Origin: Plazaster borealis
Taxonomy: Eukaryota; Echinodermata; Asteroidea; Forcipulatida; Labidiasteridae
Reading direction: 5' to 3'
NCBI GenBank assembly: GCA_021014325.1
Contig: CM037472.1
Span: forward strand, 744,001 to 808,000
Length of the DNA: 64,000 nucleotides
Shown: positions 26,968-60,710 of the stretch, piece by piece
How the letters are laid out: the number at the start of each line of letters is the position of its first letter
How positions within the stretch are numbered: the first letter of the stretch is position 1
Made by a program: the position numbers and the translations under genes
The notes under the pieces: model-generated
Seen by the model: only the letters and a program-made list of their open reading frames with translations
The model's database searches: none
What the model was told of the DNA's origin: nothing

Positions 26968-27041
26968 CCAAGGTTATACCCGTACAGTCGACTCTCGTTA
27001 TAACGAGAGAACGAGAGTCGACTGTACGGGTATAACCTTGG
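26968..27041. repeat. Near-perfect 32-bp-arm palindrome across the left MITE end
   Basis: Left arm CCAAGGTTATACCCGTACAG plus GTCGACTCTCG-type sequence is repeated in inverted form after a loop of about ten bases (ATAACGAGAG). The palindrome includes about 17 bp of sequence outside the transposon, so it is not just the normal terminal repeat. Confidence 0.85.
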
Positions 27042-28035: not shown

Positions 28036-31000
28036 ATGAAAACGATCACCTTAGCTCAACCTAAACTATCTGTTGAAATGAGTAATAAAACGAAGAAGAA
28101 GAAGAAGAAGAAACAAAGGGCCAGGTAAGACCTCATCTCATTCAAAACTGTACCGGTACAAATTTATTTTAAAGAAACTGCTTATCACATTTACCAGTTT
28201 AATACTAATATAGATGAGTATAGTCATGGTATATTATATAAAATATTAATAGTACTATTTATATAATTTGTTAGTATACTAACTTGTACTGAACTGCATG
28301 CATGCTAATCATTTCCTAGCCCAGGTTGGACTCCTCCGTTGCATACAACGCGACGGGGTCCAGGGTATAAAGGTCCTCAGGCATTGCAACAAAATTTATA
28401 ACCATTTTTTATCATATTTTTACCTTTTTGAGGAAGCTGAAACGTGACACACATGTTCCTTGTGTCCTGAACCTTACGCCTGCTCTATTCAGAATTGCCA
28501 ATTTTATCCTTGGATGACATTATTGTGAAAATAAAATGGAAATTGACGCATTCGTTGCGACAACCTCAACTGACATGGAACCAAGTCCACAAAAGAGGGC
28601 GCTGTCTAACCCATAACACTGAACGCTTTTTCTTCGGGGCGGCAACACGCCGGAGTCGCAGCGCCAGTGCACAACTTGGACTTATTTTCGGAAATAATGT
28701 CATTCATGGATGTATTTGGTAGGTTTTGAACTCAGCAAAAGTGTAATTAAAGGCACCAAGAATAAGTGAATGGAGTTTCAGCTTCTCAAATTAGGTAAAA
28801 ATATTTTAAAATGTTACTCAAAATTTTGTTCGCATTGTAAAGGATCTTTATACCCAGGACGTCAGTGCAGTGGCACTGACTGACGTCCTACCAGGGCTAA
28901 TCATTTCCATTCAATCAGTGTACCAATCGGAATCCATACACACAGTTACATACAGTTGAGTTAGTACACTAGTGTAGTAGTACAGTCTAGTGTACGTAGT
29001 ATTGCCATCACTAATGTAATAGTATATAGTTCTTGCTGTCTGAAGCTTTGGTGTGTATGATTCTACGTTTTGCTACCCAACTTTTTAAGTGTTTGTAAAT
29101 GGTAAAGATTTAGTTTAATACTATTATTGGACTAATTACTAATTACGGTTGAGGCAGGACACCCGTCTAAAATTTGACAGGTGTCCTGCCTCAACCACGC
29201 TGTTATCACGGTTGAGGCAAGCACCCGTCTAATCGACAGGTGCCCTACCTAATCTGTAATCGACAGATCCCTCGGGGAAAATACAACCGTGGCGCTAGTA
29301 CGACCGATAATGTCAAAATTTCAAAAAAGGAGTACAGCGCCCCATTTACTGGGTCTAGCTAGTTGCTATAGTCACTAGTGAAAGTCAAACAACTACTGAA
29401 GCATGTGAAGTGTAGTACCATATAGTTTTAGTTTACGTTAGTTCTGATAATCGTTACTGTGTTAAACGCTTTGTAGACTGAAAAGGTCAAAGGAGCACAA
29501 CCTAGACAATAGCTACGACTGTCACAGCTAGCTAAGTTTATGTTTGCTTGTGACGCACATTTTAAGATTTGAAAATATCTGATAATTCTCAAGACCTTTT
29601 CTCACTGCATTTCAGTTGTTCATGACCACAGGTCAAAAAACCCCCACTAAAATTATGCAATCCTTAGTTAGCTGAAGTGTGAGATTTTAAATAATCACTA
29701 CTTTTTGCTCTCTCCAAATTCATTACAGGAATAAAACTGACAAGCCACCAGCAGAAGAAAAGAGCAGCTCTCTGCAAAAGACCGCTCCAGATAGCAGTGG
29801 GAACGTCCCGTACACCATTGGTCAAATTGCCGGTTTACTGTCCACTCAAAAGGATCAATCAAAGCATCCTAGTAAGGATGCATTGTTTTCAATGTTTGGT
29901 TCAGTTGGCTCAACCAGTGGCCCTACCTGCAGGACGAGACCAGCGTTTGTTCCTCTTACTGCTGCTGGGTTGCCCAAGAGACAGAAAACACAAGAGAAAG
30001 ATAAAGAGCTTCCATTACATACAGACAGGTGTGTTGATTACATCACTTCATCAACAGAGACAAAAGCAGGAGTTGATTGTCTAGTTTGAAATGCTACATC
30101 GAGCAGTATGGCCCTTTTCGAATCCACGGCTTCGGCTTCAGATTCGGCTCAGGCTAGCTAGGCCCCTCACTTGTTTTGACTATACACGTGCTATGCGTTC
30201 AGGGATTCAGACGAGAGAATGGAGCCTGAAGCCGAATCCATAGCCAAAGCCGTGGATTCAAAAAGGACCTATGACTCACTCTCAGGCTTAGTGTTTCAGA
30301 GAGGGCAAGGCCATTTTCATTTTGTAAAGGGCTCTTCCTTTGGTAATTTATTAAGAATGGGACATTTTTGTAGGGGCACCGAGGCCTAGACCAGGATAAC
30401 AAGGATGTGGCCTCATTTTCATTTGGGGGACGGCAAAGACATAATTTTTTGGGGCAAGCTGGGGCAAAGATATAATGGGGGGGGGATGGCTACTTGATGT
30501 ATCGAACCATTCATTTATACATTTTGGGGATCTCATTTGGGGTGGGGGTGGGAAAGGGTTCTGTGTAATTCCAGGCCTGATGACTGGAAAGAAATCACTA
30601 CAACAAACGTTTGATGAGATGAATTGGATTTGGCTTTTGAAAAGTTTGCTATTATTCAATCTAAGTTTAAAATCTAATTTCTTGCAGTGCAAATCAACAA
30701 CAGCAGGAAGACCAGGAGGAATGGCAGCAACCTCCAAAGTCAGTCAAAAAAACATCATCATCAGAGAAGCTTACTGAGAAGTCTAATGATGCTGATCAAA
30801 AAGATTCCACACTAAAACGACTTAAACCCAATCTAGAAGATCTTAAGAAAACTGTCTTTGTTGGGAACCTTCCCATTTCATTTGACAAAAAGGTACTTTA
30901 ATGTGTCACTCTTTTCTTTTATATTACACAAAAATATATTGTTTAGGAGTTGGGATGATTGTTATTTACATTGTAATGAAAGATTGTTTGAAGAAATTTG

Positions 31001-34000
31001 AAGGAATCTCCATAAATTTATTATGTTATTGTTACTTCTGACCAAATAACCTACGCATTCCAAAAAAAGGTAAACAAATTGCTATAACTTCTTATGAGCT
31101 TCAAAATATGGAAAGTTTTACAGCAACCCACCGTACTCAAACCGTTCTTAGCTCAATGGTTATTTTTTTATAAGCACACATTGTTTAATTTGTTGTTTTA
31201 ATTTTTTCATCTGTTATTGTGGATTCTAGAAACTACTGAAGTTATTCAGAAAGTTTGGAGAGATTAAGACTATGCGGTTTCGTTCAGTGGTAAGTGAATT
31301 ATGATGACTCTATCTAGTTAGGTCACATGTAGAATAGATGTAGAATCTATCATATTGTACGGCTCAGATATATTGACAGTCACAAGGAAACTGGAAGAGA
31401 AACTGGACGGGTGTTACACAAAACTTCTACAGAAATGCTATGTACACTGGAGTCAACATATGACCAAATACTGAACTGTATGGCAGTGAACTAAAACTAT
31501 CCACTAAAATACAACAGCGTCGTCTGAGACTAGCAGGGCACTCATACAAAAATATCAAACAACCTGTCTCTCAGCTTATCACCTGGTCACCAAAACATGG
31601 AAGGAGAAATAGGGGAAGACAAAATATCAGCTATACAGAAGTAGTTACCAGGGACATCGGGGTGCTTCCAACTGAGCTTCCTAACTTAATGAGGGATAGA
31701 CATGAATGGGGAAATCTCAACAAGATTCTGACCTCGACCTTGGTCCTATTGACCCAATTTACCTGACTCCATCACCCATGAAAAATCTTGGTTGCATCAT
31801 TGGGAGTCAAATTTCCCCCAGGTGTTATTTTGCAACGCGCATTTTAGGCGACACGCATGCGGTTAGACGCAGACCATGACTTTATGTAGCCTACCTTGTT
31901 GGGCTGTTATTGCTCTCGTTTACTAGTCACCATTACAGCCCAGCCTCTATACACGTCAAAAACACTAAGTTTTCAAAGTACGAGCAAGTCATACCACTTT
32001 GATTGCAAATATTGCCCTTTTATAAACATGTAATGGCGACTATGATAAGACCAACGTTAAAAGAGAGTCGTAACAGCCCAACAAGCTGGGCTAGACTTGA
32101 CTAGTCCCTAAGTGGCTAACCATAGGCAGACAGTAGCTGAGTTTGATGTCAGTGCAACGGGTATTGTGCCTATTGTTTCTATTTCCATAGTAACTTCTTT
32201 TGGATGTTTGTTTTCCTTCAGGCTCCGTCTGACCCAGATCTTCCTAAGAGAGTTATTGCTCATACGTGAGTTGTGTTTGCTGCTGTAATTTTACTCTGTA
32301 ACTTTCAATAGAATATTGAATAAGTTTATGTTTTTTTGATACATGAAAAAAGAATTAGCTGTTGCAAACTGCTTACCGACCAAACGGACCTGTGCTTTAA
32401 ATGCAAAAATGGTGAATGGCCTCACGTTTTGATCATAACAGACTACTAATAATAATAAGTTCATAGCACTTTATCTACAGGCAACTGAAAGTGCTTGTTA
32501 TGTTTTTGAATTGTGAAACCCATTTATATAGCACCTTGTAAGGTCAGGGTTTACAAGGTGCTGTGGCTCAATCTTCAGCCAACCACACCTGAAAACATTG
32601 GGGGCAAACCCCTTCCCATAACGATATGTGTACTTTTACATGCATTACACAACGCACAGGACCTATGGCTTTACGTCCCATCCTAAGAGTGAATCAATAA
32701 TGGTTAAGTGTCTTGTTAAGGACACAAGTGTCAAGACTGGGACCCAAACCCACACTCTACTAATCAGAAACACCAGAGTATGAGTCAAGTGCGCTTGACC
32801 GCTCACCCACTTTGAGGAAGGCTAAAGAATGTTATTTTGGTAATTTTAATGTAGTTTAGTAATGTTGAATATTATTCTCACATTCATTTGAACAGAAAGC
32901 AGTTTCATCCAGATCGTAAATCTGTGAATAGTTACATTTTATTCAAGAGTGAAGAAGCCGCCCAGAAAGCACTGAAAAGGTTTGTTCCCTTGAAATAAAA
33001 TTTAACATCCCAAATGGTTACAATTGTAACACTTCATTGGGATTAAGTTTCAGTAGTTAGCCCTTACCATCGTAAATCATTCTATCCTCTTTGTATCCCC
33101 TGTATGTTTAGGGTGAGGAACAATTAAATTATACTCCACTTTAATTAGTTTGAATTATCTCTGGAACAAATTAAGCTCTTCAGCTGTCATTAACCTTGAC
33201 AGTCCTAAATCTCTCTATATCCAATTGCCAAAGCGAAGGATTCAGAAGGACTGGGGCCGGCCGGCCCAAACAACAAGTGATTATCACTGGATCAGGGATA
33301 CCAATCTTATCCAAGTCCAAATAATTTGGTGTTGAGTGACATAGGAGAGGAGGATTTTGGAGGATTCAGGCCACACGCTAGCAACACTGCCTAGGGAGTA
33401 AGGGTTTAAATTAACAGACCCAGGAGGTTGTAATTCTGTCATCTTGCGCCAATTCTTCCATTAACTCCACATCTCATTTGATGGAAGAATCTACAGGTCC
33501 ACATGTTCCATTCATTACTTTTTTTTCTTGTGTGTCTAGGAATGGGAAGCTGGTTGAGAATCACCACATCCGAGTAGATCTCGCTGGTAACAGCAGAGAG
33601 GTAGGAACTTTACATTGGAATGTTTGATATCAGTGACTGGTGATGTCATTTTGCAGGGTTGGATATTCAGGGAGGCGGGGCTAAGGGATTGGGCAATCAA
33701 TGGATTGTTAAATAGTTTTCATTATTGCCTTAAAAAATCGGATTGACCAAAGACCTACCTCATGTATGATGGAATGGATGCAATGGGTAATATTGACAAA
33801 TTTATCCACGCTATTACATAACCCAGCATTAGGGCTAGTGACCTCAAACGGCTGAAAGATTTGACCTTCTTTCACTCAACCAAAAGGTCATATCCTGAAC
33901 TGACATTTTTCAATGTTTCTTATATTAACGGAGTACTGCATCTCTTTATAAGAAAACAAAATTTCTGTTTCATCTTGCCAAAAAATAAACCATTAGCGAA

Positions 34001-35612
34001 ATCTGAGTATATGGTTATGATTATACAGAAATGAAAGGCCTCTAAAGGGTTAAACACGGTCTCTGACCTTGGTCATTATTATAATACTGCATTTGTGTCA
34101 CAGTCCTTTTGTAGAATTTATCTTCCTTTTCGCCTTGCACAGCATGATACCAAACATTCAATATTCCTTGGAAATCTACCGTTTGATGTCAAAGATGATG
34201 TAGTAAGAGAACATTTTGAAGAATGTGGTACTGTTGAGAATGTTCGCATCGTACGAGATGCTAAGACAGGATTGGGGAAAGGATTTGGATACATTCTCTT
34301 TGCTGTAAGTATTCAGATTGAACTTGGCCCAATTTCATAGAGCTGCTTAAGCACAAAAAGTAGCTAAACACAAACTTATGCTTACCAGAATATGGTTACC
34401 AGCCAGAATACCATGTCACATGTACCATCCTTGACTGGTATCCTGCTAATTTTTGTTGTAAACCCTTATAAGGTGCTACATAAATGGGTCTCATAATTCA
34501 AAAACCTGTCTGGAAATAAATAATGATAAGCGCTTTGAGACGCCTGTAGGTAAAGCACTCTATAAAAACTAGTTATTAATATTAAAACACAGGTTGATGA
34601 TTAGGTTATGGCCAGTGCAATTGACTGGTCATTGTGTTGGTAGAGTATGATCAACCATTTGGCCATTTTTACTTCCCCCCCCCTTCAACAACCATCTGCT
34701 CTGCTGCTTCATCTTCCTAACTTCTGGTATTTTGTTCAAATGTTGTTGTTGTTACACTTCTATCATAAATGTGTGATTTGTGTAGTGTTCTATTCTTGAC
34801 ATTGGTATTGATATAACAATGATTACTAATAAGTTCTAAATGATGACTTTATCTTCAATTTTCTGACTGACTAGGACGATGTATCCGTTGAGTTTGCAAT
34901 CAAGCTAGATGGCAGTAGAATGGCAGGACGTGACATACGTGTACAGAGAGCAACCAAACAGAAACAGATATCCTTTATATTTATCCTCCAACAGATTTCA
35001 TCATTTGCAATTATTTCATCTGGAACTTTTGGTAAATTTATCTTTCACTATTTGTTCAAACATTTGTTTTCTTTTGAGACTGCCACCCCAAACATTTGTT
35101 TTCTTTTGAGACTGCCAACAACTTTCTATTTTTATTTAGTTCGTACACAGTTATGTGGTTATTTATTCTCGTTAAAAGAAATCTGAATAAATTTTACTGG
35201 TTACAGAGTGCAATATATTGTAAACAAAACTGGTGGGGCAGGATGGGGAGGAGGGGGGTATTCACTTCACTGTGATTCAAAGAGACAACAGTCTGTGAAA
35301 GAAAAGTTCTAGTCCTTAACTTCAGTGCACAGAGCTATGAATGCAATGAAAAGATTGCAAAAGAAACCTGATGTGAAAGCCAAGCCAGAACGTGGAAAGA
35401 AGAGCCATGACAAGCCAGGTCGGGTCAAGCCAGGTCGGGTCACCAAGCCAGGTCGGGTCAAGCCAGGTCGGGTCAAGCCAATGCAAGGGAAGTTGACTAA
35501 GCCTAAATCAGGTCAACCAAGATCAAGTAAAGGTGGTAGAGGATCCACGAAGAAAGGAAAGGCATCTGGTAGTATCAAGAAGAAGAAGTTTACAAAAAAC
35601 AAGAGAAAATGA
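28036..35612 (+). CDS. RBM34: RNA-binding protein 34 (Nop12-like, two RRMs)
   Basis: Ten coding exons: 28036-28124, 29729-30028, 30688-30892, 31230-31289, 32222-32265, 32896-32979, 33540-33600, 34143-34304, 34875-34967 and 35331-35612. All join in frame, giving 459 aa (human RBM34 is 430). The N-terminus is lysine-rich (KTKKKKKKKQRAR), as expected for a nucleolar protein. RRM1 begins KKTVFVGNLPISFD (RNP2) and has RNP1-like NSYILFKSEEAAQKAL. RRM2 has SIFLGNLPFDVKDD (RNP2) and GKGFGYILF (RNP1). The C-terminus is a basic tail with KPGRV repeats ending KKKKFTKNKRK. Yeast Nop12 acts in 60S ribosome assembly, and RBM34 is nucleolar. The final intron is AT-AC. An AATAAA signal follows at 35791. Confidence 0.94.
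29147..29196. repeat. Perfect hairpin GGTTGAGGCAGGACACC
   Basis: A 17-base arm is followed by 16 bases and then its exact complement, GGTGTCCTGCCTCAACC. A degenerate second copy of the same motif follows near 29208-29250 (GGTTGAGGCAAGCACCCG). It lies in the first RBM34 intron. Confidence 0.85.
30110..30269. mobile_element. Fold-back MITE with GGxCCTTTTxGAATCCACGG ends
   Basis: The left end GGCCCTTTTCGAATCCACGG is inverted at the right end (CCGTGGATTCAAAAAGGACC), and similarity continues inward through GATTCGGCT. A TAT trinucleotide flanks both sides as a possible target duplication. It lies in the second RBM34 intron. Confidence 0.75.
31345..31735 (+). pseudogene. Decayed non-LTR retrotransposon (LINE) 3' ORF fragment
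   Basis: Translation on the plus strand gives LYGSDILTVTRKLEEKLDGC and then, after stops and a frame change, QQRRLRLAGHS, LITWSPKHGRRNRGRQ and LPTELPNLMRDRHEW. This is the typical region after the reverse transcriptase of LINE-like elements (RRLRLAGH followed by a GRRNRGRQ motif). It lies inside the RBM34 intron after exon 4. There is no intact reading frame. Confidence 0.75.
32515..32812 (-). mobile_element. tRNA-derived SINE, type 3
   Basis: On the minus strand the head reads GTGAGCGGTCAAGCGCACTT followed by a GGGTTTGGGTCCC B-box-like motif, resembling a class II (Leu/Ser) tRNA. The body includes ATTGATTCACTCTTAGGATGGG and GTAAACCCTGACC-like words. A better preserved copy is at 51595-51903. 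Confidence 0.65.
34325..34450. mobile_element. Fold-back MITE, family C, 3'-truncated copy
   Basis: It begins GGCCCAATTTCATAGAGCTG and continues CTTAAGCACAAAAAGTAGC, matching the copy at 2367. The right terminus is missing. It lies just 3' of the RRM2 exon of RBM34. Confidence 0.7.
34968..35330 (+). other. U12-type AT-AC intron in RBM34
   Basis: The exon ends ...AAACAG and the intron starts ATATCCTTT, which matches the U12 AT-AC donor consensus exactly. Near its end is TCCTTAAC, the U12 branch-point consensus, about ten bases before a terminal CAC. Skipping 363 bases joins codon CAG (Gln) to AGA (Arg) in phase 0 and continues the RBM34 frame. No GT donor is available at the exon end. Confidence 0.9.
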
Positions 35613-50000: not shown

Positions 50001-53000
50001 TCTCTTTCTTCTCCTCTTCAGCCTTCTCCTTTTTCTCTTTCTCTAGTCGTTCTTTTTCTCGTTTTTCTCGTTGTTTCTTCTCCTCTTCCCTTCGTTCCTT
50101 CTCTTTTGCTTTGGAGTCTTTCTTATCTGGAGTTTCCTTCTCAGTTTTGGTCTCTGTTTTCTTGTTGCCCTGCAATCCAATGCGATTGAATAGTCAAAGC
50201 CAAATTCTAATTTAAATATTCAAATTCAATCAACTGACCTCACCAATCATGAAAGTCACACGACCTGCATCTAACAGGGTCTAAACAAGCACAAGACTTG
50301 GCCAAGTTTATCATCATTATTATTTTTAGCAACCAATAACAGATAAAATTGTTTGATTAAAATTCTAATTAAAACTGCTAAAAACAGTAGTAATTTGGGG
50401 TTCAACAACGAAAACAAGACTAAAGCAGGATTTGAACCAGCGACCTCCGGATTAATGTGCCGGCGCTCTACCAACTGATCTATCTAGCCCTATGTTGGCG
50501 GTCTCCCTATTTGTTACCTTCTTCTTCATCCTTGGTGAGATCTCTTCCTCACTTTCAGACTCTTCCATCTTACGAAGCTCCTTGGGAGATGGAGACTTCT
50601 CTACTTTGGAGGGAATGTTCATTGGCCAACGCTCACTGTATGAAGACCTCCGACGTGTTCTGGGTAAGGAACGTGTGATACCAGGGCCAAGCTTGCGATT
50701 ATACTCTTCAAATGCATACAGGTACCTGTCAATTTAAATCAGAAATGTAGAAATGGTTTAAAAATTAGTATTCAATATTTGATGTTCTTTTAAGACATTT
50801 TATAGGCTTCCATTATTAAGTGTTGTTAAGTTTTATTAAAAAGACTTTCACGGTATTGGCCCCGGCACTGTGGACACACATGGCTACAGTCTGTCCATGC
50901 TCTCTCATTTTGGATGTCAAATTTGCATGTAAAGATATTGTGCACGTCTCACCACTTTTACAGCAAACTTTACTAGACTGCATCTCCACCATGCAAAGTT
51001 TCAAATCCAACTCATGTACATGGTGTAACTGCAAACCTTACTAGATTGTATCTCCCCCATGCAAGGTTTCGAATCCTACTCATGCACATGGTGTTACTGC
51101 AAACTTTACTAGATTGTATCCCCACAATGCAGAGCTTCAAATCCGACTTACTTGTTGTATGCAGCTTTGATGTTATAAGGCTGCGCTGTGGTAACAGTAG
51201 GAATACCCATCTTAGTCGAGACGTGGCGCCATTTCTGTTTATCGGTTACTTTGCGACATCCTCCAATATCTTGAACCAACTTGTAGAGTTTGTACAGATT
51301 CAAGTCACGGAAACCAAGCACTGGCGGCTTGTTGATTGGAGTACCTGCCAAAGAAATTGATTATTAAAACCTTCTTCTCTCTGGTAGATTGTGGAGCCCA
51401 CTGTTTCATCTTCCAAAACCATTTACACACTTCACTGATCATGTATGCTGGTGTGCACTTACTTGCTTGTTTGTTTGTGAATAATAATAATAGTGGCTTC
51501 TTATATAGCGCTCATATCCGTCACTCAGTGACGCTCAAGGCGCTTCAACATTCAGTATTTTCCTGCAAGGTATTGTGGAGCTACAATTGAATTATGAAAA
51601 CAGTTCCTTTACATAGCACCATGTAATGGTTTACAGGGTGCTGTGGCGCAACATGCAGCCAATCAAACCAGGAGCACCGGGGCGAACCCCTTCTCTTTTC
51701 GTTAAGTGCACTGGGTTCTTTTACGTGCGTTACACAACACACGGGACCAATGGCTTTACGTCCCATCCGAAGGACGCAGCAATAATGGTTAAGTGTCTTG
51801 CTAAAGGACACAAGTGTCACGACCGGGACTCGAACCAACACTCTGCTGAACAGAAACACAAGAGCTTGAGTCCGGTGCTCTTATCCGCTCGGCCACGACA
51901 CGCCACGTTAAGATTATATTCCCGTCTAGGGAACTCCACAAACTTGTTTATCCCAAATGCAAGAATGACATCTTATCTTTTTACCTCTTTCTTCCATGAA
52001 TTTATGAAGTGAAGCAAGCCAGGCATCTTTCTCTTCATCATATTCATCATCTGTGTCATCTTCACTCTCCTCCTCCTCCTCCTCAGCGTCTGCTTTATCC
52101 GCATCGTTCTTGTTCTTCTTGTTTCCACTGTTCCCACGATTCTTCTTGAGCATATCAGGATCCCAGTTGCTAGGGAGTTGTCCCATCTCAACAAAGTTGA
52201 CAGCTTTTTCAACCGCTGGAAGGACAATAGATTTTAGTTTTATTTGACTACCAAATAAAAGATATCCATTTTGTTAAAACTCAAGTAACGGAAAAATTTT
52301 TTTATTTTAAATCCATCATTTTGTGACACTACATCCAGTCTGGACATGCAATTTGTTTTTTTATATTACAGAAGATGACCACTACTTTCACACTAAATTT
52401 TTGTTGTTTTATGCATTCAACTATATGGAAGTTTAGAGCACATAGACAATGACAACATTTGTAATTGTCAAAGACCAGTAGACCAGTATCCGCACTTTGT
52501 TTGACCCAACATGTACATGAAATAATAACCCTGTGCAAGTTTAAGCCTGCTCAAATGACGACATATGCATAACAGGCCTTGAACTTCGCTCTTGAAGGGG
52601 CACAGCAATTTTCCTCTAGTAAGGGGCACTTCTATGAGGAAAATGCAAACTTGTATCGGAACTTTGCAAAGGGCACCACGGCAATTGCTGTGGGTGCTGT
52701 GGGTTAAATCCAGGTCTGTCATAAGGTCTATGCACAATATAAGAGTGGGCATTGACAAGCGCAATAACAAGTAAAGACAAATTAATAATAACTGGTAATG
52801 TACAACTTTGAATATTGATATAAAAAGGTGAGGAGAAACTGACCTATTTTTAAGCTGGAGAGATCTCCTTTGTAATTATGATCTTTAGAGGCAAAAGCTC
52901 GCCGACTCTGCTTGTCAATGCTGTAGCTGTTTGAATAAATCACAACATGATGTTAACATCTCGTCTATTGGTCAATATTTCTTATCAGTCATACATCGAT

Positions 53001-57787: not shown

Positions 57788-60710
57788 CTGAATGAATAAA
57801 AAGAAACAAAATATGAATACAAATCAACGTATTACAGATATTTGGAATCAAAGTTATAAACCACTACTTTGTATCCTTTCCATTTTCCAGGTTTGGAATC
57901 CATTTTCCATTTTCCAGGTAATCAAAATCATATATTGAGAAAATGTTTGAGTTAGACATGAAATAATACAAAATGTGATACTAGAATGTTGAAGAACAAG
58001 GAACGGTAATTTATCACTTGTTAAGATAAAAATTGCAAAATTCTGAAAACTCATGTAGAATTATAGATGGATTTCTCTGGAATTCCATTCTTGAAGTGAC
58101 AACATTGGACACTTTTTCCAATTGCCACAAATAAAATAAAAATCTACCAGTCAACAGGAGAGTTTTTTCAGCACCACCACAGAAAAAAAACCCTGCTTGC
58201 TGCTGGCAAGAATGTATTATATTTCAAAATTTCAATTATGTATCATTGATTTTTAACACAAAAGACATTGTTCTCCCTTAACAATGGTCTGCTGGCCAAA
58301 ATGCCAGTTAAAACACCCAAGGACCAGTCAGAATTCTCTCCAAGTAGTCCGTCTGGCTAGTTCAGTGTTGAAAAGCATCCCTATTTAATATGAAATATGG
58401 ACAAGTGAAAAAGCCGGTGGACTAGTGAAAAAGCTAGTGGACAAGTGAAAAAGCTAGTGGACAAGTGAAAAAGCTGGTGGACTAGTGAAATGTCAAGCTG
58501 ACTGTGCCTGCTGGCCAGTCACTAAAAAAGTTTAAGGGCAAACCCTGAAAGAGACTAACTACTTTACTGCAGCTCATTCTACACTTCAGCAAATAAATTG
58601 CAAAACTTGACTTGGTATTTGGTACGTGTAATAAAATAGGTTCATCTGTAAGTGTAATGATGTATTACAATTGAAATCTTCTATTGATTCATTATTTACA
58701 TTTAAACACTTGAAATTCACACCTAATTTTTTAAGGCTGTGTGATGATATTTAAAGAACTTGTGACTGGACATGAACGTGTGCAATACCAGCACAGGAAA
58801 GTGAAATAATGCAACATTCCTTGCACTGCATTTTTTTTTGTGGGGGGAGGGATGCAATTTCAGTCTTTAGAATAAGATTGATGAGGCACAATCTCAAGAT
58901 TTTAAAGTGATGTTTTTTGCATCCCCAATTGGAACACTCATCCTCCAAATTGTTCCCAACTCCTAAGCCGCTTGCCATATTGGAATCACCAAGACACCAG
59001 TGCATGAAAGTTCCGTTTTGGAAGCTCTGTGAAATGCACGGAGGATTTAACCTGAAAAAAAAACATAACGTATTTGATAATTTCTCTGGCCCTTCCTCTA
59101 TTTGATTCAAGCGATTATTCTTTAAAGTGAAAACCACCAAAAGGTTTGGGGAGGATTGTGTGTTCTTACATATTGCACTTATTTTCATAATGGCAATTTA
59201 AGTAAGTCATTCTGGATACTGGGTGTCTTCAAATTTGACAAGCCATCATGGATGATGGAGGTAGGATTCAGACGGAGGTATTTCTGTGGAGGATTGGCAT
59301 GATGGATGGTGGCAGCATGGTGGCAGTGACTTGGTAATGGTTGAGATGCGAGAGTTGATCATTATGGAAGACATGGAAATAGCAAAACTAAATTTCAGAC
59401 TCTGTACTTTAGTATAATTTGCATCTTTTACTGACATTGGATTGGATGGTAGGTACCCATTGTTGTTGGCGGGTAAACCGTCGTACTCATTCAATTGAAA
59501 ATACATGTCAGATTTTGCATTTGGCTCTTATCTTACTACAAATTACATTCATTCTCAACTTACTCTTTCTGGATATGGCAATATCAAGAATTGGGCGAGG
59601 GGTGAAAAATGCAACCTTAGTATCAATATGTGAACTAGATCTGAGGAAATGCTGGCAACCTGCCCGGCTGTAAAAACGGAAAGTTGTCGGCGTTTTATCA
59701 GATATCGCCGTGTGTCTGCTGAAGAAAGCGCGTTAGTTGAATTGCTTGAATTTGTAGCAGATAAAAAAAGAATAAATCACCACAAAAATATACATTACCA
59801 TTGTTTAATTCATTCGGTTCCACTTCAGCATACGAAGACTTCATTTATCTCTACAACCTATAAGTTTAATCAGTAAATTCACTTGAAATTATGTCGCAAA
59901 AGATGGAATCATTTTGTCAACTTCTTCTTTCCGTAATCAGTCTGTTTGAAAGAGACATAAGTTTAGCATCAGTTTGTGCGTACGTGATGTGTATGCATTA
60001 ACGTACAGCGTCTAGTACATGGTGAATCATGTCACAACAACATATCATGGGGGGTCCCTTGCTCTCATTGGTCGCTTATCACGTGGGACGAAACGTTTGA
60101 GGTCAACCTTAGTCTGGCTTCATTCTTCAATGTTGTGTATAACACCTTCAAGGCATAGGTTGCAAGACATTGCAAAAGGTAATTCCCCGGCAGCTGGTTC
60201 CCTGAAAAACCAGTTGAAATGTAGTCTGGTGCTTATCACCACGTTTGCAATTTGCGAATATAAATCTAAGGCAAATCTTTGTGATTAAGTCACGGTGCAG
60301 ACGAACTGAGCTAATTTGGGAAATCATAAACAAATGGCAGCAAGTGCCAGTAACACCGGTTGACCGGTTTTTGAAGGTTAGAAAATCTGCCTTTTGCGTC
60401 GTCTGCTAAATATTGGGCTCTTCTGCAAATATCTTTTGGCAGTATTTGTTCATGAATTGCTCGTTATTTGTATTAAACATTCTATTTAGTATACAATGCT
60501 CGTCTTTTTTTATTTATTGTAATAATGTATTCATTTGTTTAATCATGGAGGTAGGATTGGCTAATTCTACCTCCATGGTTTAATTATATATTTTTTATTT
60601 TCTATAGTATCAATTACAAAAACATTTGTCTTTTTAATGTTTTTCAGCAATAGAACGGCCATGATTGTGAAATATCTTCATTTGCAGTAAGATGAACGAA
60701 AGCTGCAGTA
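57788..60710. other. Region between the first visible ARID4 exon and the right-hand gene
   Basis: The missing ARID4 start exon should lie here or just beyond, but I found no ATG-plus-donor exon that I can defend. It contains a dispersed repeat (58270-58555) and CpG-richer sequence around 59640-60130. An inverted CCAAT (ATTGG, 60067) and an E-box (CACGTG, 60080) suggest a shared or adjacent promoter (inference). Confidence 0.45.
58270..58555. repeat. Dispersed repeat with a 20-bp tandem expansion
   Basis: Shares its flanks with 18858-19095. At 58401-58490 a 20-bp unit close to ACAAGTGAAAAAGCTAGTGG is repeated about 4.5 times. The related copy at 18858 has only one unit. Confidence 0.8.

Follow-up and report, generated by a model that had tools for sequence, protein, structure and literature searches.

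The last intron of a starfish RBM34 gene is very probably a U12-type AT-AC intron

The window, by which we mean the whole 64-kb stretch of DNA that was analysed, carries on its plus strand, between 28036 and 35612, a 10-exon gene for RBM34, whose joined exons give an open frame of 459 codons and a stop. Protein homologues were numerous (1349 found, the best 120 listed). The top match among those 120 was the Asterias rubens RNA-binding protein 34-like (P0001; 80% identical along its full length, E 4.4e-218), and among the matches listed the next ranks were taken by proteins of Acanthaster planci and Patiria miniata. Judged by this one protein, the DNA probably comes from a starfish close to Asterias. 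The Pfam domain RRM_1 was recognized in two stretches of the protein, and its closest PDB chain was Nucleolar protein 12 (11aa_H). The two RRMs and the RBM34 name carried by the best matches place the gene as RBM34, the Nop12 orthologue. A table in a review lists RBM34 together with Nop12 among the structural factors of 60S assembly (PMC9307984). The features of the 3′ part of the gene are as follows.

28036..35612, plus strand: RBM34 coding region, 459 aa, 10 exons
34875..34967, plus strand: exon 9, end of RRM2, ending ...AAACAG (...QKQ)
34968..35330, plus strand: intron 9 (the last), AT-AC, 363 nt, phase 0
34968..34976, plus strand: U12-type 5′ splice site ATATCCTTT, 9/9 to RTATCCTTT
35312..35320, plus strand: U12-type branch site GTCCTTAAC, 8/9 to TTCCTTRAC
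35329..35330, plus strand: terminal AC, 3′ splice site of intron 9
35331..35612, plus strand: exon 10, coding part with the stop, 93-residue basic tail, beginning AGAGCTATG
35791, plus strand: poly(A) signal AATAAA

The 93-residue C-terminal tail contains 36 K/R and 3 D/E. Within exon 10 a coding minisatellite occupies 35411-35480 (4.5 copies of the 15-nt unit CAAGCCAGGTCGGGT, with 33 nt perfectly duplicated) and encodes the KPGRV repeats of the basic tail; the A. rubens tail has a related yet different PGRG/KPGR array, and the Acanthaster and Patiria proteins have less of it. Exon 8 (34143-34304) consists of 162 nt, or 54 codons, and is flanked by phase 0 introns on both sides. The 54 residues missing from the Acanthaster isoform X2 (P0004) relative to X1 (P0002) correspond exactly to this exon, so that skipping of an RRM2 exon is annotated in Acanthaster.

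Introns 1-8 of the gene are all GT-AG, and intron 9 is AT-AC. Read directly, intron 9 starts with ATATCCTTTATA and ends with ...TCCTTAACTTCAGTGCAC. The ATATCCTT(T) that marks a U12-type 5′ splice site at +1 is present at 34968. In the branch site the single mismatch is a G in place of the first T, and the classical TCCTTAAC lying within it is matched at 8/8 positions (35313-35320). From the putative branch A at 35319 to the last intron base at 35330 there are 11 nt, which falls inside the range of about 11-13 nt characteristic of U12-type introns and inside the published optimum of 11-13 nt (PMC6717393). The intron ends in AC at a coding junction that fits the RBM34 family, and the AG dinucleotides at 35331-35332 and 35333-35334, which follow the terminal AC directly, would both shift the frame. 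The first-pass annotation had named the gene, described this segment as its last intron and given its boundaries correctly to the base; its phase 0, AT-AC termini, U12-type 5′ site and branch site were likewise confirmed.

The remaining introns of the gene served as internal controls. Introns 1-8 had 4-6 mismatches to the U12-type 5′ site and 2-4 mismatches at their best branch-like site; intron 7 comes closest to the branch motif, with TTCCTTTTC. The pyrimidine share in the 20 nt preceding the terminal dinucleotide did not discriminate between them, amounting to 65% in intron 9 vs 65-85% in the others (65% in each of introns 2, 3 and 5). Inside intron 9, at 35057-35117, there is a perfect 29-nt tandem duplication with a period of 32, perhaps recent. 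In exon 9 the sequence GTATCCGTT at 34881-34889, within the stretch coding for DVSVEF, matches the U12 GT-type 5′ site at 8/9 positions; located 87 nt upstream of the real 5′ site, it is a possible decoy and probably a coding coincidence.

The weight of these motifs was set against chance expectation. With up to one mismatch allowed, each motif taken singly occurs in the window at chance level (39 vs 43.5 expected for the 5′ motif and 40 vs 40.1 expected for the branch motif). The exact 5′ motif was found at 2 of 127,984 positions, the intron 9 site being one of the two, and the 40 positions with a branch site of at most one mismatch, out of the same 127,984, include that of intron 9. We defined a joint signature as an exact RTATCCTTT followed within 1 kb by a branch site with at most one mismatch, the branch A lying 11-13 nt before AC or AG. 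It occurs once in the window, both strands considered; of 1500 dinucleotide shuffles, 128 contained it one or more times (mean 0.089). A looser version was present in 13 of 100 shuffles, and when each motif may carry one mismatch the raw count of qualifying donors in the window is 7. In 64 kb the two motifs by themselves are therefore no overwhelming evidence, and they carry weight because they lie exactly on the coding junction picked out by homology. A candidate for a second U12-type intron was rejected: a perfect 5′ motif GTATCCTTT is present at 57871, with a branch-like TCCCTTAAC at 58274, yet within 3 kb no branch-like site is followed by an AG at a distance of 9-15 nt from its A.

Two further features of the window lie outside the gene. 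The Rfam scan of the 64-kb window gave a tRNA as its only hit, at 50416-50490 on the minus strand (44.9 bits), which ARAGORN reads as tRNA-Asn with the anticodon ATT. This anticodon is unusual for a eukaryotic tRNA-Asn, and the tRNA-like sequence is therefore perhaps a tRNA-derived repeat. A perfect 32-nt inverted repeat with arms 10 nt apart (26968-27041), adjacent to CTCTTTATAACA direct repeats, is perhaps a remnant of a mobile element.

Splicing out intron 9 yields ...RATKQKQ|RAMNAMKRLQ, which aligns without gaps to ...RATKQKQ|RAVNAVKRLQ of A. rubens, ...RATKQKQ|SAVNAMKRLQ of Patiria and ...RATKKKQ|SAVNAMKRLQ of both Acanthaster isoforms, in agreement with the earlier proposal that exact removal of the segment keeps the frame and joins RRM2 to the basic tail. 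The junction alignment comprised 12 of the 120 listed homologues, including these four starfish proteins (P0001-P0004); the tail is divergent in the remaining eight, of which one is a sea urchin protein and seven belong to other phyla. The length of intron 9 is divisible by three, so preservation of the frame is by itself a weak argument; the intron contains in-frame stops, the first being TGA at 35184-35186, and its removal is therefore required to reach the tail. The 120 listed homologues were screened for truncation at this junction, a possible sign of a non-canonical intron; in the 119 whose RNP1 motif could be recognised, at least 76 residues extend from RNP1 to the end, a result uninformative on intron class. 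Two proteins of Ptychodera flava (P0006 and P0007) differ after KKEK, at the homologous junction, by an apparent one-base shift. An indel is the likely cause, a difference in acceptor being possible; as the two proteins differ elsewhere too, an indel between two gene copies explains the shift as well as splicing does, and it was not counted as evidence.

Only two ways of cutting, the AT-AC pair and a TA-CA pair, yield exactly the protein modelled for the window itself. We applied also a less circular test, in which a starfish-type junction was any that combines residues found in the window or in any of the four starfish proteins. From 185,010 donor/acceptor pairs with any dinucleotides just two gave such a junction, AT-AC 34968-35330 and again TA-CA, the latter being the identical product slid by one base. 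When 3857 candidates with GT-AG, GC-AG, AT-AC or AT-AG ends were scored against the A. rubens protein, the intron 34968-35330 came top with 483, vs 454 for the best GT-AG or GC-AG intron and 151 for intron retention. The second-best was AT-AG 34970-35332, with 475 vs 483 (287 vs 288 on the Patiria protein); its product has I in place of R as the single difference, and it is without the U12 5′ motif at its start.

An ordinary U2-type GT-AG or GC-AG intron with other coordinates could in principle connect RRM2 to the tail, as in-frame pairs of both kinds are present in the region, the top-scoring one being GC-AG 35007-35312. A starfish-type junction, however, arose from none of the 1,092 GT-AG and none of the 472 GC-AG pairs, and the 12 best listed pairs insert, delete or replace junction residues (454 at the top vs 483), so that we consider such an intron highly improbable. 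Very little probability is likewise left to removal of the AT-AC intron by the major (U2) spliceosome. Its precedent is intron 21 of SCN4A, which has AT-AC ends and yet needs the major spliceosome, and AT-AC ends alone are not decisive for class, both points being made in PMC2831892. The sodium channel U2-type AT-AC introns described there share these ends with RBM34 intron 9 and have G at +5, whereas intron 9 has C at this position together with a U12 branch site in place at the right distance; its 5′ site is an exact RTATCCTTT and has 4 mismatches to the 6 positions of GTRAGT.

The least probable alternative, to which we give hardly any credence, is a U12-type intron that uses mainly a downstream AG and would thus be AT-AG, ending at 35332 or 35334. 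Counted from the branch A, the two AGs right after the AC lie at 13 and 15 nt, and minor introns with AT-AN ends exist (PMC8280824). Splicing of the donor at 34968 to either AG would nevertheless change the frame, so that the tails would have 12 and 1 residues, and the in-frame tail is kept in all four starfish proteins. The two AG acceptors could be used as a minor by-product.

We regard a U12-type (minor-class) AT-AC intron as very probably the correct description of RBM34 intron 9 and the best explanation of the sequence. Against this class stand its phase 0, the one mismatch in the branch site and the occurrence of the motif pair in 128 of 1500 shuffles; what the homologous proteins back is the junction, and not the class of intron that their species have there. 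Phase 0 is disfavoured or under-represented among minor introns (PMC10639083, PMC7367187). The label "textbook" given to the intron by the first-pass annotation is accordingly fair, with reservations as to the branch site (8/9) and the phase. For a minor intron to stand first or last in its gene is nothing unusual, since this is so for 122 of 722 minor introns in mouse (PMC6717393). The density of minor introns in Asterias rubens is comparable to that of vertebrates (PMC10639083). A close likeness is offered by the human SMYD2 U12-type AT-AC intron, which shares its first ten bases, ATATCCTTTA, with intron 9 and has a U12 branch site near its 3′ end and a terminal GCAC (PMC7367187); it belongs to another gene, is in phase 1 instead of phase 0 and has the branch region TTTCCTTGAC.

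The minor spliceosome is built of U11, U12, U4atac, U6atac and U5. In the splicing pathway that we propose from what is established for this machinery, U11 would recognize ATATCCTTT and U12 would pair with TCCTTAAC, U6atac would then take over from U11 and the lariat would form at A35319, and the exons would be ligated at CAG|AGA through the AC located 11 nt downstream of the branch A, connecting RRM2 to the basic C-terminal tail. Expression of RBM34 would then be expected to depend on U11/U12/U4atac/U6atac, as judged from the sequence of the intron. In human cells the minor introns with AT-AN ends form a subset that depends on CENATAC and has a relatively high basal level of retention (PMC8280824). 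RBM34 intron 9 has the AT-AN ends that define these A-type minor introns, for which human cells are the system where the dependence on CENATAC was shown.

If intron 9 were retained, translation would add 72 residues, mostly hydrophobic and with 5 K/R, before running into the stop at 35184-35186. As intron 9 is the last one, the retained form would have no downstream exon junction, and junction-dependent decay would not be expected. Minor introns have been proposed to act as switches through limiting U6atac (PMC3728624). That splicing of intron 9 acts as a switch on the form of the protein rather than on survival of the message seems to us unlikely. Were it true, the retained form would comprise both RRMs and a 72-residue hydrophobic tail (5 K/R) replacing the 93-residue basic tail (36 K/R), and the activity of the minor spliceosome would be coupled to a 60S-assembly factor.

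In full-text searches of the literature we found no published tie between RBM34 and a minor intron or the minor spliceosome. RBM34 is absent from the main text of the minor-intron papers PMC7367187, PMC6717393, PMC10639083, PMC2831892, PMC8280824 and PMC3728624, and where RBM34 and 'U12-type' co-occur in an article, the two are mentioned separately. A minor intron in a starfish gene is expected, and the sole news is which gene carries it; RBM34 intron 9 looks like a clear further example of a well-known intron class and not a new phenomenon. Its value lies in being a well-defined AT-AC minor intron of an echinoderm gene for ribosome assembly, a useful locus on which to test minor splicing in starfish, and in the warning that gene predictors limited to GT-AG and GC-AG introns would lose the C-terminal tail of RBM34 or predict it wrongly.
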